DNA of 34,748 bases, taken from contig CACJED010000009.1 in NCBI GenBank assembly GCA_902592285.1, positions 1 to 34,748 of the forward strand. The letters run 5' to 3'. The DNA is from an uncultured Pelagibacteraceae bacterium (GTDB lineage: Bacteria; Pseudomonadota; Alphaproteobacteria; Pelagibacterales; Pelagibacteraceae). Position numbers and translations under genes: made by a program. The notes beneath the pieces were generated by a model. It worked only from the letters and a program-made list of their open reading frames with translations, had not been told where the DNA came from and ran no database searches. Below are positions 5,174-34,748 of this stretch, one piece after another (within the stretch, counting starts at the first letter, position 1; each line of letters begins with the position of its first letter).

Positions 5174-5266
5174 ATTTTGTTAACTTTTTGAACACTTAAA
5201 AGCGATATTGACTCCATGGCTTGTCGATTTTTTAATAAGATTTTTAAAAAAAAAAGGGAGAAAATT

Positions 5267-6266
5267 ATGAAAGCACAGGTGCTACGAAAGTACGATCCAG
5301 AAATGAAAGAAGGTGTCTGGGTAGCAAATGAAGAATTGCCAAATCCAAAAATTGAAAAGGCTTCAGATGTGATTGTTAAGATTGGTGCTGCAGGTGTTTG
5401 TAGAACTGACCTTCATATCATTGAAGGTGTTTGGAAACATATTCAAGATCCTGAAGGAAAATTATTACCATGTGTAATGGGACATGAAAATGCTGGATGG
5501 ATTGAAGATGTAGGAAAAGATGTAACAGAATTTAAGAAAGGTGATCCAGTAATTCTACATCCACTTATCTCAGGTACTGACGGAACATGTTTAGATTGTA
5601 GAAGAGGAAATGACATGCATGCAGCTGCCGGAGCTTTTCCTGGGTTAAGTATTAAAGAGGGAGGTTACTCAGAACTATTAAAGACAAGTGTTAGAAATTT
5701 AATAAAACTTCCAAAAGTTTTAGCTCCGAAAGATGTTGCACCTTTTTCAGATGCAGGATTAACGGCTTACAGAGTTGTTAAAAAAGCTACAAGACATTTA
5801 CTTCCTGGTCAAAGCTGTACAATTATTGGCGCTGGAGGTTTAGGACACATAGCTATTCAATGTTTGAAAGCAATGTGTGCTGCAGATATTATAATTGTAG
5901 AAAAATCTGAAAAAGCTTTAAAACATGCAATGGAACTTGGTGGTGATCACGGAGTTTTAATTGATGGAAATGAAATCGAAAAGATACAAGAACTTACAAA
6001 GGGAAAGGGTTCTGAAGCTGTTATTGATTTCGTAGGTGAAAAAGGATCTACTGCCATGGGAATTCAAATGACTTCTAATGGCGGTTTTTACTACAATTGT
6101 AGGAAATTTAGTGGGAACGTGGTCTGAATTATATGAACTAATGGAATTAGCTGATAGAGGAAAAGTTAAGCTTTCCATGCAAGAGTATAAATTAGATGAT
6201 GCTAACAAAGCGCTTCATGATCTTAATGATGGAAAAGTCAAAGGTCGTGCAGTGTTAGTTCCATAA
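5267..6266 (+). pseudogene. Zinc-dependent MDR alcohol dehydrogenase disrupted by an internal deletion and frameshift near 6086-6104
   Basis: ATG 5267 with GGGAG upstream. GHENAGWIEDVG and GAGGLGHIAIQ motifs. Frame is lost after GGFYY; the C-terminus (IVGNLVGTWSELYELMELADRGKV...GRAVLVP) continues in ORF 6078-6266 in another frame. Confidence 0.8.
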
Positions 6267-7886: not shown

Positions 7887-8753
7887 ATGAATTTTAGGCA
7901 CAAATTTGTTTTTTTATTTCCCGGTTTATTTGTGCTTATAGGGATATTGATTTTCCCAATAATATTTACAATAAGATTAAGCTTATCTGGCTGGAATAGT
8001 TATACCCCTGAAATGAATTTTATAGGTATAACAAATTATATTAGGCTTTTTACTGACGACCCAAGATTTTGGGAGTCATTTTTTAGATTAAGCTTTCTGT
8101 CAGTTTCAACGGTAGTACTCCAGTATATAATTGGTTTTGCGTTAGCTTTAATGGTTTGGAGAGAAATAAAATTTAAAAGATTTTTTAGAGTAATATTTTT
8201 AATACCAATGATGACAACTCCAGTCATAATGACAGTAATTTGGAGAACGTTTTTCCATGAGTCCTTAGGTCCTTTAAATGACCTGTTAGGACGCGTAGGA
8301 GTAGAACCTATATTGTGGCTTAGTGATCCAGTAATTGCGAAATTCACAGTGATAATTGTTGAGGTTTGGCAATGGACACCATTTATGTTTTTATTGTTAT
8401 TAGCGGGATTACTTTCACTACCTAAGGAACCATTTCTTGCAGCTGCTATTGATGGCGCAAGCTCGTTTAGAAAATTTGTTTATGTTACATTTCCTTTGAT
8501 GGCACCAATATCTATTGGAGCAATTATTATAAGACTTATTGAGGCTTCAAAGATAATGGATACAGTTTTTGTTCTTACGTCAGGTGGCCCTGGTACAGCT
8601 ACAGAAACTTCAAGTTTTTATATTTACATAAAAGGGTTAAGAGAATTTCAAATGGGTTATGCAGCAACACTTTCTTTTACCTATCTTGTTATAATGATTA
8701 TAAGCCTAACAATTATAGCTAAGGTATTAACTAAGTTGATGATTAAGGAGTAA
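7887..8753 (+). CDS. ABC sugar/polyol transporter permease (MalF/UgpA-type)
   Basis: 6-TM profile; EAA motif AAAIDGASSFRKFVYVTFPLMAPI. Confidence 0.88.
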   Translation: MNFRHKFVFLFPGLFVLIGILIFPIIFTIRLSLSGWNSYTPEMNFIGITNYIRLFTDDPRFWESFFRLSFLSVSTVVLQYIIGFALALMVWREIKFKRFFRVIFLIPMMTTPVIMTVIWRTFFHESLGPLNDLLGRVGVEPILWLSDPVIAKFTVIIVEVWQWTPFMFLLLLAGLLSLPKEPFLAAAIDGASSFRKFVYVTFPLMAPISIGAIIIRLIEASKIMDTVFVLTSGGPGTATETSSFYIYIKGLREFQMGYAATLSFTYLVIMIISLTIIAKVLTKLMIKE

Positions 8754-31741: not shown

Positions 31742-33223
31742 TTATCCCATTGTAAAAGGATCGGTCATTGGTTTATCAGAGGAATTATACCATGTTGTTT
31801 TTATTCTAGTATATTCTTTAATAGACTCTATACCTGCTTCTTTTCCATAACCACTATCTTTTAGTCCACCAAATGGAGCCATAGGAGATATTAATCTATA
31901 TGTATTAATAAAAACTATTCCAGCTCTTATAGCTTTTGAAACTCTAAGTCCCCTAGCGAAATTAGATGTATAAACTCCAGAGGATAAACCATATTTATTA
32001 TCGTTCATTTTTTCTATTACCTCTTTTTCATTTTCAAATTTCATTACAGATAAAATTGGACCAAATAATTCATTTTCAGCAACTGGTAAGTTATGATTTT
32101 CACATTCAATTATTGTGGCTGGAAAATAATAGCCTTTATTTGAAATTGAGGATCTTTCACCTCCACATCTTATTTTTCCACCTTGTTCTATTGTGGTTTT
32201 AATATTTTTTTCAATATTTTCTAATTGTTTTAAACTATTGAGAGGTCCCATTTGAGAATCTTCCTCCATTGGGTCTCCTAATTTAATTTTTTTAGCTTTA
32301 TCAATTAATTTTTTTAAAAATTCATCATAAATTTTTACATGTAAGTAAAGTCTTGATCCAGCTATACAACTTTGTCCACTTGCTCCAAATATACCAGCGG
32401 TAATACCATTTAAAGCATTTTCTTGATCTGCATCATTAAAAACCACCACTGGGCTTTTGCCACCAAGTTCTAAACTTACTTGTGATAAATTTTCAGCAGA
32501 GTTTTTTACAATATGTTTCGCAGTTTCAGGTCCACCTGTAAAAGCAATTTTTTCTACAAGATTGTGAGTAGTGAGTGCTTTACCACATGGCTCACCCAGT
32601 CCTGTTACAATATTTATTACTCCTTTAGGTATTCCAGTCTTTTCAATTAGTTTTCCAAATTCTAGAAGGGTTACTGGTGCTAATTCTGAAGCTTTAATAA
32701 CAACTGTATTCCCCATTGCAAGAGCTGGTGCTAACTTTACTGCTGTTAAAAGCATTTGTGAATTCCAAGGTATAATTGCTGCTACAACACCAATAGGAAT
32801 TCTAGTTGTAGTTACTTGCATATCTGGTTTATCAATTGGAACTACAGTTCCCTCAACTTTGTCTGCTAATCCTGCAAAATAATCATAATATTCTGCTATA
32901 TAGTTTGCTTGAGTTTTGGTTTCTCTGTAAAGTTTTCCGGTATCAATCGTTTCAATTTTACCAAGATATTCAGCGTTTGCTCTTAATTGTTCTCCAATTA
33001 ATCTCAAGTATTTTGCTCTTTCTCTTGGGTGAAGTTTTGACCAATTGTTTTCAAACGCATTTTGAGCTGATTGAACCGCTTTATCTACATCTTTTTCATC
33101 AGCTTCAGGAACTGTTGCCCAAACTTCATTGTTTTCAGGATTTAATGACTCTATTTTTTTTCCTGATGATGAGGCTACCCACTCACCATTAATATACATT
33201 TTAAAATCTTGAATTTTTGACAT
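31742..33223 (-). CDS. NAD(P)-dependent aldehyde dehydrogenase
   Basis: IPWNSQML, FTGGPETAKHIV, LELGGKSPVVVFNDAD, GASGQSCIAGSRLYLH (catalytic Cys), ENELFGPILSVMKF. Confidence 0.95.
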   Translation of the reverse strand: MSKIQDFKMYINGEWVASSSGKKIESLNPENNEVWATVPEADEKDVDKAVQSAQNAFENNWSKLHPRERAKYLRLIGEQLRANAEYLGKIETIDTGKLYRETKTQANYIAEYYDYFAGLADKVEGTVVPIDKPDMQVTTTRIPIGVVAAIIPWNSQMLLTAVKLAPALAMGNTVVIKASELAPVTLLEFGKLIEKTGIPKGVINIVTGLGEPCGKALTTHNLVEKIAFTGGPETAKHIVKNSAENLSQVSLELGGKSPVVVFNDADQENALNGITAGIFGASGQSCIAGSRLYLHVKIYDEFLKKLIDKAKKIKLGDPMEEDSQMGPLNSLKQLENIEKNIKTTIEQGGKIRCGGERSSISNKGYYFPATIIECENHNLPVAENELFGPILSVMKFENEKEVIEKMNDNKYGLSSGVYTSNFARGLRVSKAIRAGIVFINTYRLISPMAPFGGLKDSGYGKEAGIESIKEYTRIKTTWYNSSDKPMTDPFTMG

Positions 33224-34006
33224 TTAGCTTTTAATAAAATTTCTTATATTCATATTAACATCATCTGCACACTCTATACTACAAAGATGTTTTCCATTTT
33301 TAATCTCAACATACCTTGAATTAGCTAAATCTTTTGTTAATTTTTTTGACATAGATGGCGTTGATCCTGAGTCATCAGAACCTGTCATAACTAGGGTATT
33401 TGAGGTTATATTTTGTATTACTTGAGTATTATCCTCATGATTAGCAAATAATTCATAAGCCTTCAAAAAATTTTTATGATCTTCAGAATTCTTATTTAAA
33501 ATATCTATGAATAAATCATATGTTTTTGGATTTTTCTTTAAATATTCATCTGTAAACCATCTTTTAAGGGCTTGTTTTGAAATTGGTTTGTTTAATTTTG
33601 CTTGGTTATATCTATCAAGAACAAGAGCTCTTTCTTCACTTGATCTTTTATAAGTTGTGCCAATCAATATTAGTTTATTAATTTTTTCTCTCAATTTTGA
33701 TGCAAAATCTAAAGCAATTAAAGATCCTAACGAAAAACCAACTAAATGAATTTTATCAATATTTAGGTATTCTAAAATTTCATTGAGTTGACTAGAAAAA
33801 TCCCCAAAGTTTAATTTCTCTTTTTTACATGGAGTTTTTCCATGGCCGAGTAAATCATAAGTTATAATTGAAAATTCATTCAAATTTTCTATTTGTGGCT
33901 TCCACATTTGATGATCAAGACCAACACCATGTATGAAAACTAATGGAATACTGTCTTTTTTTATATAGATATAGTGATTTTGATGAGTATCAAAATTATT
34001 AGACAT
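33224..34006 (-). CDS. Alpha/beta hydrolase
   Basis: VFIHGVGLDHQMWKPQ, LVGFSLGSLIALDFA nucleophile elbow, KNGKHLCSIE catalytic His region; ATG 34006 directly after a TTG. Confidence 0.9.
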   Translation of the reverse strand: MSNNFDTHQNHYIYIKKDSIPLVFIHGVGLDHQMWKPQIENLNEFSIITYDLLGHGKTPCKKEKLNFGDFSSQLNEILEYLNIDKIHLVGFSLGSLIALDFASKLREKINKLILIGTTYKRSSEERALVLDRYNQAKLNKPISKQALKRWFTDEYLKKNPKTYDLFIDILNKNSEDHKNFLKAYELFANHEDNTQVIQNITSNTLVMTGSDDSGSTPSMSKKLTKDLANSRYVEIKNGKHLCSIECADDVNMNIRNFIKS

Positions 34007-34010
34007 CAAA

Positions 34011-34598
34011 TTATTTTGGATCTAATCCCATCTCTTTCATATCTTGATAGCGATCTCCAGTTCTTGCGTGTGCTCTTCCACTTGAGGCCCCACCAATTGC
34101 AATAACGATTTCATCGTTGAAAGGAGCATCATGAATAGTGAACTCGTGCGTTAAATAATAAGGTCTTAAACCAGAATCTGTTTTGTGCATCATGGGTATA
34201 GATATTTTTGAACCTGCAGGACCTCTAGTATTAGTAAAACTTAGATAAGATGTCCCACCAACAGCATCTCTAAATTTGTTTCCAAATCTTAAAGTATGAA
34301 TAAATGCAGACGCATGTTCTATTTCACCATCTAAACCTACTGTTCCAGCTTTGCCATAAGCCAGTATTCTTTCTGGAGATCCAATTTCTTTAATAAGTTC
34401 TGGCACTAGAATGTCACCAAGCTTTGGAGCTAAATCTAAAATAATTGGTTTTAAATCATCTACAAATCCTTTGCCATGCCACGGATTTTTAAAAACTGCA
34501 GCAACGGAAACTAATAAAACAGGTTCTTTTGCTTTTTTTCCTCCTTCAATGAAAGTCTTATCTACAAATTTATTAAATTTTCTTATTTCAAGTTCCAT
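34011..34598 (-). CDS. 'Amino acid synthesis' family protein (PF06684/DUF1185-like)
   Basis: AAVFKNPWHGKGFVDDLKPIILDLAPKLG, AYGKAGTVGLDGEIEHASAFIHTLRFG, IAIGGASSGRAHARTGD; recalled family signature. Confidence 0.75.
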   Translation of the reverse strand: MELEIRKFNKFVDKTFIEGGKKAKEPVLLVSVAAVFKNPWHGKGFVDDLKPIILDLAPKLGDILVPELIKEIGSPERILAYGKAGTVGLDGEIEHASAFIHTLRFGNKFRDAVGGTSYLSFTNTRGPAGSKISIPMMHKTDSGLRPYYLTHEFTIHDAPFNDEIVIAIGGASSGRAHARTGDRYQDMKEMGLDPK

Positions 34599-34748
34599 TA
34601 ACTTGCTTTTTCTAGATTTGATGTATTAACATTTATTTTTGGAATAACTTCATCATTAAATAATTTGATACTTCTCATACAATCCTCATGGTCTATACCT
34701 GGAAAATTAGACCATACTTGAAGATTTTGTAAGTTCAGTTCTGATTGT
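34598..34748 (-). CDS. C-terminal fragment of an LLM-class (luciferase-like) flavin monooxygenase, running off the right edge
   Basis: Minus-strand frame open to the edge: QSELNLQNLQVWSNFPGIDHEDCMRSIKLFNDEVIPKINVNTSNLEKAS*. TAATG overlap with the PF06684-like gene. Confidence 0.6.
   Translation of the reverse strand, partial: QSELNLQNLQVWSNFPGIDHEDCMRSIKLFNDEVIPKINVNTSNLEKAS

Follow-up and report, generated by a model that had tools for sequence, protein, structure and literature searches.

A probable SAR11 ring-opening operon of the tgn kind and its candidate riboswitch leader

Introduction

SAR11 are the most abundant bacteria in the surface ocean. The locus considered here, at the end of a SAR11 contig, raises the question of which compound a compact set of four catabolic genes breaks down, and of how those genes are controlled. 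The earlier note on this DNA had compared the set with ring-cleavage systems such as the trigonelline (tgn) genes and, in part, the pyrimidine (Rut) genes. We address the question by way of the genes themselves, their counterparts in other genomes, and the DNA that lies upstream of the first gene in relatives.

Gene layout in the window

The window, by which we mean the whole 34,748-nucleotide stretch that was analysed, is a single contig (C9) of a SAR11 (Pelagibacteraceae) assembly that is 70% complete. The contig stops at base 34748, part of the way through the operon's first gene, which encodes an LLM-class flavin monooxygenase whose start lies about 1.0 kb beyond. The window thus contains only the 3' end of this gene (34598..34748, minus strand; 49 codons and a stop), followed on the same strand by genes for a 195-residue PF06684 (AA_synth, DUF1185) protein of a TgnF-like subfamily (34011..34598), for a PcaD/enol-lactonase-like alpha/beta hydrolase with the nucleophile elbow GFSLG (33224..34006), and for a 493-residue aldehyde dehydrogenase (ALDH) with intact catalytic motifs GQSC, ELGGK and PWN (31742..33223). 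Pfam scores are 213 bits for PF06684 (against a cut-off of 27), 99 bits for Abhydrolase_1 and 543 bits for Aldedh. The tight packing described earlier is borne out, with all four frames in place: the LLM stop overlaps the PF06684 start in a TAATG at 34600-34596, the ATG of the hydrolase is at 34006, and the hydrolase meets the ALDH in a TAAATG at 33226-33221.

At 49 codons the edge frame is below the length usable for Pfam, but it is 88% identical to residues 341-388 of a complete SAR11 LLM protein (L010:8835-10001), that is, to its C-terminal end, so the supposition that the frame belongs to an LLM enzyme was correct. The rest of the gene is on no other contig of the assembly.

Using the PF06684 protein as a query, we retrieved 80 SAR11 loci, nearly all of which have the order LLM-PF06684-hydrolase-ALDH. 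When the window's genes are compared with their relatives, dN/dS is 0.02-0.07 (PF06684 protein), 0.04-0.07 (ALDH) and 0.11-0.23 (hydrolase). Because the same order recurs in about 80 SAR11 loci and dN/dS stays between 0.02 and 0.23, the arrangement is not due to chance, and the four-gene operon is real.

The loci fall into two types. In type I (45 loci, and the type seen in the window) the stop codon of LLM and the start codon of PF06684 overlap, while in type II (35 loci) a gene for a ThDP-dependent enzyme lies between LLM and PF06684; the ThDP-containing version is also found in a second SAR11 family. The ThDP genes are acetolactate-synthase/Xsc-like (L022:8304-10004, L043:8304-10004, L136:9760-11457 and L173:7053-8921), and one other alphaproteobacterial operon has such a gene, 63% identical. 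A ThDP homologue on the Ruegeria pomeroyi megaplasmid was rejected as a relative of the operon, as it sits in an unrelated MttB/aminotransferase operon (L142:2351-11671) with genes for an MttB-family protein, a class III aminotransferase and two FAD oxidoreductases, which looks like a methylated-amine pathway.

The surroundings of the operon vary as well. The window's downstream neighbour is a convergent panB-guaA pair, and 15 type I loci share it, among them L003, whose PF06684 protein is 97% identical to that in the window. Upstream, 33 of the 45 type I loci have divergent EutA-like and DoeA-like genes and potA-D. In L022 (2611-7003), L038 and L045, the genes upstream of LLM encode Rieske oxygenase, glyoxalase-like, cupin-like and type III glutamine-synthetase-like proteins. 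Elsewhere in the window, an alcohol-dehydrogenase-like gene at 5216-6127 has an early stop and its C-terminal part runs on in another frame to about 6265, an apparent frameshift that is either an assembly error or a pseudogene.

Relatives of the operon outside SAR11

Three of the four proteins point to the same kind of operon. The SAR11 PF06684 protein has 52-58% identity to PF06684 proteins encoded in flavin-reductase/LLM operons of Rhizobium, Sinorhizobium, Chimaeribacter, Leisingera, Thioclava, Gemmobacter, Aquabacterium and Acinetobacter, where the usual order is GntR-PF06684-hydrolase-flavin reductase-LLM-ALDH or a close variant. In a draw of 399 genomes across the phylum, the close PF06684 subfamily occurred in 22 other proteobacterial genomes, and in 20 of these a partner gene (LLM, hydrolase, reductase or ALDH) was adjacent. 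When the SAR11 ALDH was compared with 10,784 plasmid ALDH places, the top matches were ALDHs of PF06684/LLM operons, at least eight of the best matches listed being seen to adjoin PF06684 or LLM genes. The hydrolase is more divergent, with 27-33% identity to the operon hydrolases, and its best plasmid matches likewise sit in LLM operons. Judged by similarity and gene context, all three proteins (PF06684, ALDH and hydrolase) have orthologues in tgn-type flavin-reductase/LLM operons, which hold their closest kin outside SAR11, and the membership of this operon among the ring-opening clusters proposed earlier is upheld to that extent. The family call made for the PF06684 protein also stands, although the protein is less of an orphan than was thought, because the trigonelline pathway has a PF06684 homologue of its own, TgnF (PMC7913881). 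Its relatives of solved structure are 2qtp and 3byq.

The oxygenase is another matter. SAR11 LLM proteins have 24-29% identity to tgn-type LLMs, for which an A. baumannii operon served as proxy, and at no more than 29% identity they are not orthologues of these. They cluster instead with LLMs of a few other alphaproteobacteria in a separate clade on a long, well-supported branch. An AlphaFold model of the SAR11 LLM was set aside, its mean pLDDT being 52. In one non-SAR11 genome (G211), genes for a flavin reductase, an LLM (55% identical), a PF06684 protein (63%), a hydrolase and an ALDH follow one another in the SAR11 order, and this operon bridges the SAR11-type and tgn-type operons. By these comparisons, the SAR11 operon has kept the downstream enzymes and has a different oxygenase, a combination compatible with a substrate other than trigonelline.

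Reductase, regulator and transporter

The earlier note had suggested looking past base 34748 for a flavin reductase, a regulator or a transporter. Relatives allow us to do so, and the outcome is mixed: the transporter is present in most type I loci as the divergent potABCD genes upstream, while the SAR11 operons examined have neither a flavin reductase nor a protein regulator. No PF01613 reductase was found in any searched genome of the window's genus, including the complete genome G396, which has the LLM gene; PF03358 reductases are encoded elsewhere in the window's genome.

PotABCD is a transporter of the polyamine/betaine type, and its PotD-like protein aligns along its length with the solved structure 8jv1 (603 bits). 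One SAR11 protein of the PotD type, SAR11_1336, reportedly takes up betaines, DMSP among them (PMC13310141), and we infer that 8jv1 or the PotD of the type I loci is this protein. The transporters adjoining related operons are of the POT-ABC, BCCT, ProXVW or cytosine-permease type. One related operon adjoins the methylamine genes gmaS and mgsABC, and no co-occurrence of LLM with MgsC (methylamine assimilation) was evident.

A structured leader RNA

Aligning the DNA upstream of the LLM start in relatives, where it can be read past the edge of the window, revealed a conserved block: a structured leader of about 65 nt with the consensus AARCGAU-ACAUAACUC-hairpin-AAGYGGGAUC-RGUCGUCUU, followed by a Shine-Dalgarno sequence and the ATG. 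All 75 SAR11 LLM genes whose upstream DNA can be read have the leader: 73 match a strict motif, and two deviate from it a little. A covariance model run over 101 SAR11 genomes found the RNA in 35 of the 36 that have LLM, the one exception being a genome in which LLM is cut by a contig end, and in none of the 65 that lack LLM. The leader is absent from the non-SAR11 operons examined. Each locus has one strong copy, directly before LLM, except in L024, with a partial second copy beside a EutA-like gene (8422-8463), and in G412, with a copy beside a EutA-like gene (L191:2882-2962, contig C38); these extra copies look like relics of an earlier position of the operon. Ten matches to the core pattern in viral contigs scored at most 20.6 bits, had no LLM operon nearby, and were taken as chance.

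RNAalifold gave a meaningless structure on the raw MAFFT alignment, because the hairpin loops vary in length, and we used a structure-fitted alignment with pair counts in its place. In this alignment, whose fitting favours the structure to which it was fitted, 95.4% of cells pair, and 6 of the 12 pairs show two-sided changes, in 22 cells. None of 500 shuffles did as well, and sliding the partners lowers pairing to 24-51%. Individual arms show the same compensation: CGAU/AUCG becomes UGAU/AUCA in L071, and an outer A-U pair becomes U-A. Single-sequence fold z-scores of the aptamer are weak, and the argument for the element is therefore built on covariation and gene linkage. Rfam 15 gave no match at the gathering threshold, and matches at E values up to 10 were at chance level. 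Measured against that collection, the leader is a previously uncatalogued element, and it is a more novel one than the operon that it precedes.

In each of the 38 distinct platforms, the sequence that forms the 3' arm of the closing stem (GUCGUCUUU) has an alternative partner, the Shine-Dalgarno region. This pairing is more stable than its shuffled versions by 1.3-3.3 standard deviations in the eleven leaders tested, and when the two states are compared, 60 of 61 leaders prefer the one with the hidden site, the mean difference being 4 kcal/mol. Without ligand, then, the 3' arm would pair with the Shine-Dalgarno sequence, and given this preference, a ligand that stabilises P1, as the closing stem is called, would free the site and turn translation on. 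This is the direction to be expected of a catabolic operon. We consider the leader a candidate translational ON riboswitch, with both its ligand and its direction inferred.

A protein-binding or autoregulatory mRNA element, in place of a small-molecule riboswitch, would also fit an element that is restricted to one operon and in which the covariation lies in two short helices only. Nevertheless, the internal loops that lie between the covarying stems have long invariant sequences (ACAUAACUC and AAGYGGGAU), and every distinct leader has the mutually exclusive Shine-Dalgarno-sequestering alternative. This is the usual layout of riboswitches, and the operon is catabolic. We think a protein-binding or autoregulatory element rather unlikely. 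The more specific proposal, that this is a new class of riboswitch confined to SAR11, which responds to a heterocyclic betaine plentiful in the sea (homarine or a direct breakdown product of it) and turns on translation of the degradation operon, replacing the GntR protein of most non-SAR11 relatives, is one that we put forward tentatively, aware that it could well be wrong. If the leader is a riboswitch, the identity of its ligand would name the pathway without culturing the host, and it is this RNA that would make the question of the substrate directly testable.

Substrate and pathway

Our preferred reading, held with moderate confidence, is that SAR11 use these genes, as a diverged catabolic operon of the tgn kind, for opening the ring of an N-heterocyclic betaine, with homarine (N-methylpicolinate) the likeliest substrate. 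A betaine-type transporter would bring the substrate in. The LLM enzyme, using FMNH2 from a reductase encoded elsewhere, would oxygenate and open the ring to an N-formyl-N-methyl semialdehyde, which the ALDH would oxidise. The hydrolase would then remove the formyl group or hydrolyse an enamine, leading to a product of the glutamate/2-oxoglutarate type plus methylamine or N-methylglutamate. The PF06684 protein may aid a dehydrogenase or an intermediate step, as reported for TgnF, and the leader RNA probably controls translation in place of a protein regulator. The ThDP-dependent enzyme of some SAR11 operons is not explained by this simple scheme.

Homarine is one of the nitrogenous metabolites measured at the highest levels in surface-ocean particles, where it was reported to reach 67 nM and to be about 100 times as abundant as trigonelline (PMC8269262); in a later correction, the authors called their homarine values overstated. 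The same paper considers TgnAB sterically unsuited to homarine. If SAR11 do use homarine through an operon whose oxygenase is of another lineage and which has no reductase of its own, this would matter for the flow of carbon and nitrogen. A homarine catabolic pathway was published in 2026 by Ferrer-Gonzalez et al. (10.1038/s41564-026-02313-7), as listed in PMC13390433 (reference 55).

Other betaines are possible substrates, as carnitine genes lie next to two related operons. The closest ALDHs come from operons of Parasedimentitalea (55%) and Aminobacter (53%), which hold genes for carnitinyl-CoA dehydratase/enoyl-CoA hydratase, a 3-hydroxyacyl-CoA dehydrogenase that on our reading is carnitine-dehydrogenase-like, and BKACE-like proteins, and the G211 operon adjoins a DAO oxidase and a Rieske oxygenase that, among proteins of solved structure, is most closely related to carnitine monooxygenase. 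These neighbours could mean that the substrate is carnitine, butyrobetaine, a cyclic amino-acid betaine or another quaternary ammonium compound, and that no pyridinium ring is opened. However, SAR11 and most of the related operons lack such neighbours, and the RidA, flavin reductase and riboflavin genes that adjoin related operons fit oxygenation of an N-ring, so that we regard this alternative as rather unlikely. In Parasedimentitalea and Aminobacter (L144 and L145), the PF06684/LLM/ALDH module is accompanied by carnitine-dehydrogenase-like, BKACE-like and RidA genes.

The divergent EutA-like, DoeA-like and potABCD genes of the 33 type I loci suggest another possibility, namely that the operon completes an ectoine-like compatible-solute pathway. 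This we consider improbable: these genes never occur with type II operons and are missing from a few type I loci (e.g. L012), EutA lies several genes away from the operon in the complete genome G396, the EutA and DoeA homologues score far under curated cut-offs, and the leader RNA follows LLM and not EutA. A Rut-like pyrimidine pathway, the other likeness drawn in the earlier note, shares with the operon an LLM oxygenase and a hydrolase with weak similarity to RutD (82 bits against a cut-off of 238), but it can be dismissed almost entirely, as the best solved relatives of the LLM are bacterial luciferases and a diketocamphane monooxygenase, with RutA not among its solved-structure matches, and the operon has no RutB, RutC or RutE genes.

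Comparison with known systems

The nearest named system is tgn of Acinetobacter baylyi ADP1, which, so far as it is described in the papers that cite Perchat et al. 2018 (PMC7913881, PMC8269262), likewise has an LLM enzyme, the PF06684 protein TgnF, an alpha/beta hydrolase and an ALDH in one operon. A cluster in A. baumannii (L129), with the order GntR, PF06684, hydrolase, reductase, LLM, ALDH, permease and second ALDH, looks like tgn on our reading, and its PF06684 protein and ALDH are 54% and 51% identical to those of SAR11. The SAR11 operon differs from tgn in that its LLM comes from another clade and that it lacks the flavin reductase (TgnA, PF01613), the GntR regulator, the permease and the SSADH; it has an RNA leader instead, and some versions add the ThDP enzyme. 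The coumarin genes hcdDEFG of Pseudomonas mandelii (PMC7913881) resemble it in that they serve ring catabolism and encode a PF06684 protein, HcdD, next to an FMN reductase in one operon, but they include no LLM enzyme and their substrate is coumarin.

The GntR-type operons of Rhizobium, Sinorhizobium, Leisingera, Thioclava and Gemmobacter share the protein families with the SAR11 operon, and often a betaine-type transporter, but differ in gene order, in the presence of a reductase and a regulator, and in the lineage of the LLM. A six-gene homarine operon, homABCDER, has reportedly been described, with SAR11 among its carriers, and that number of genes is consistent with the GntR-type operons.
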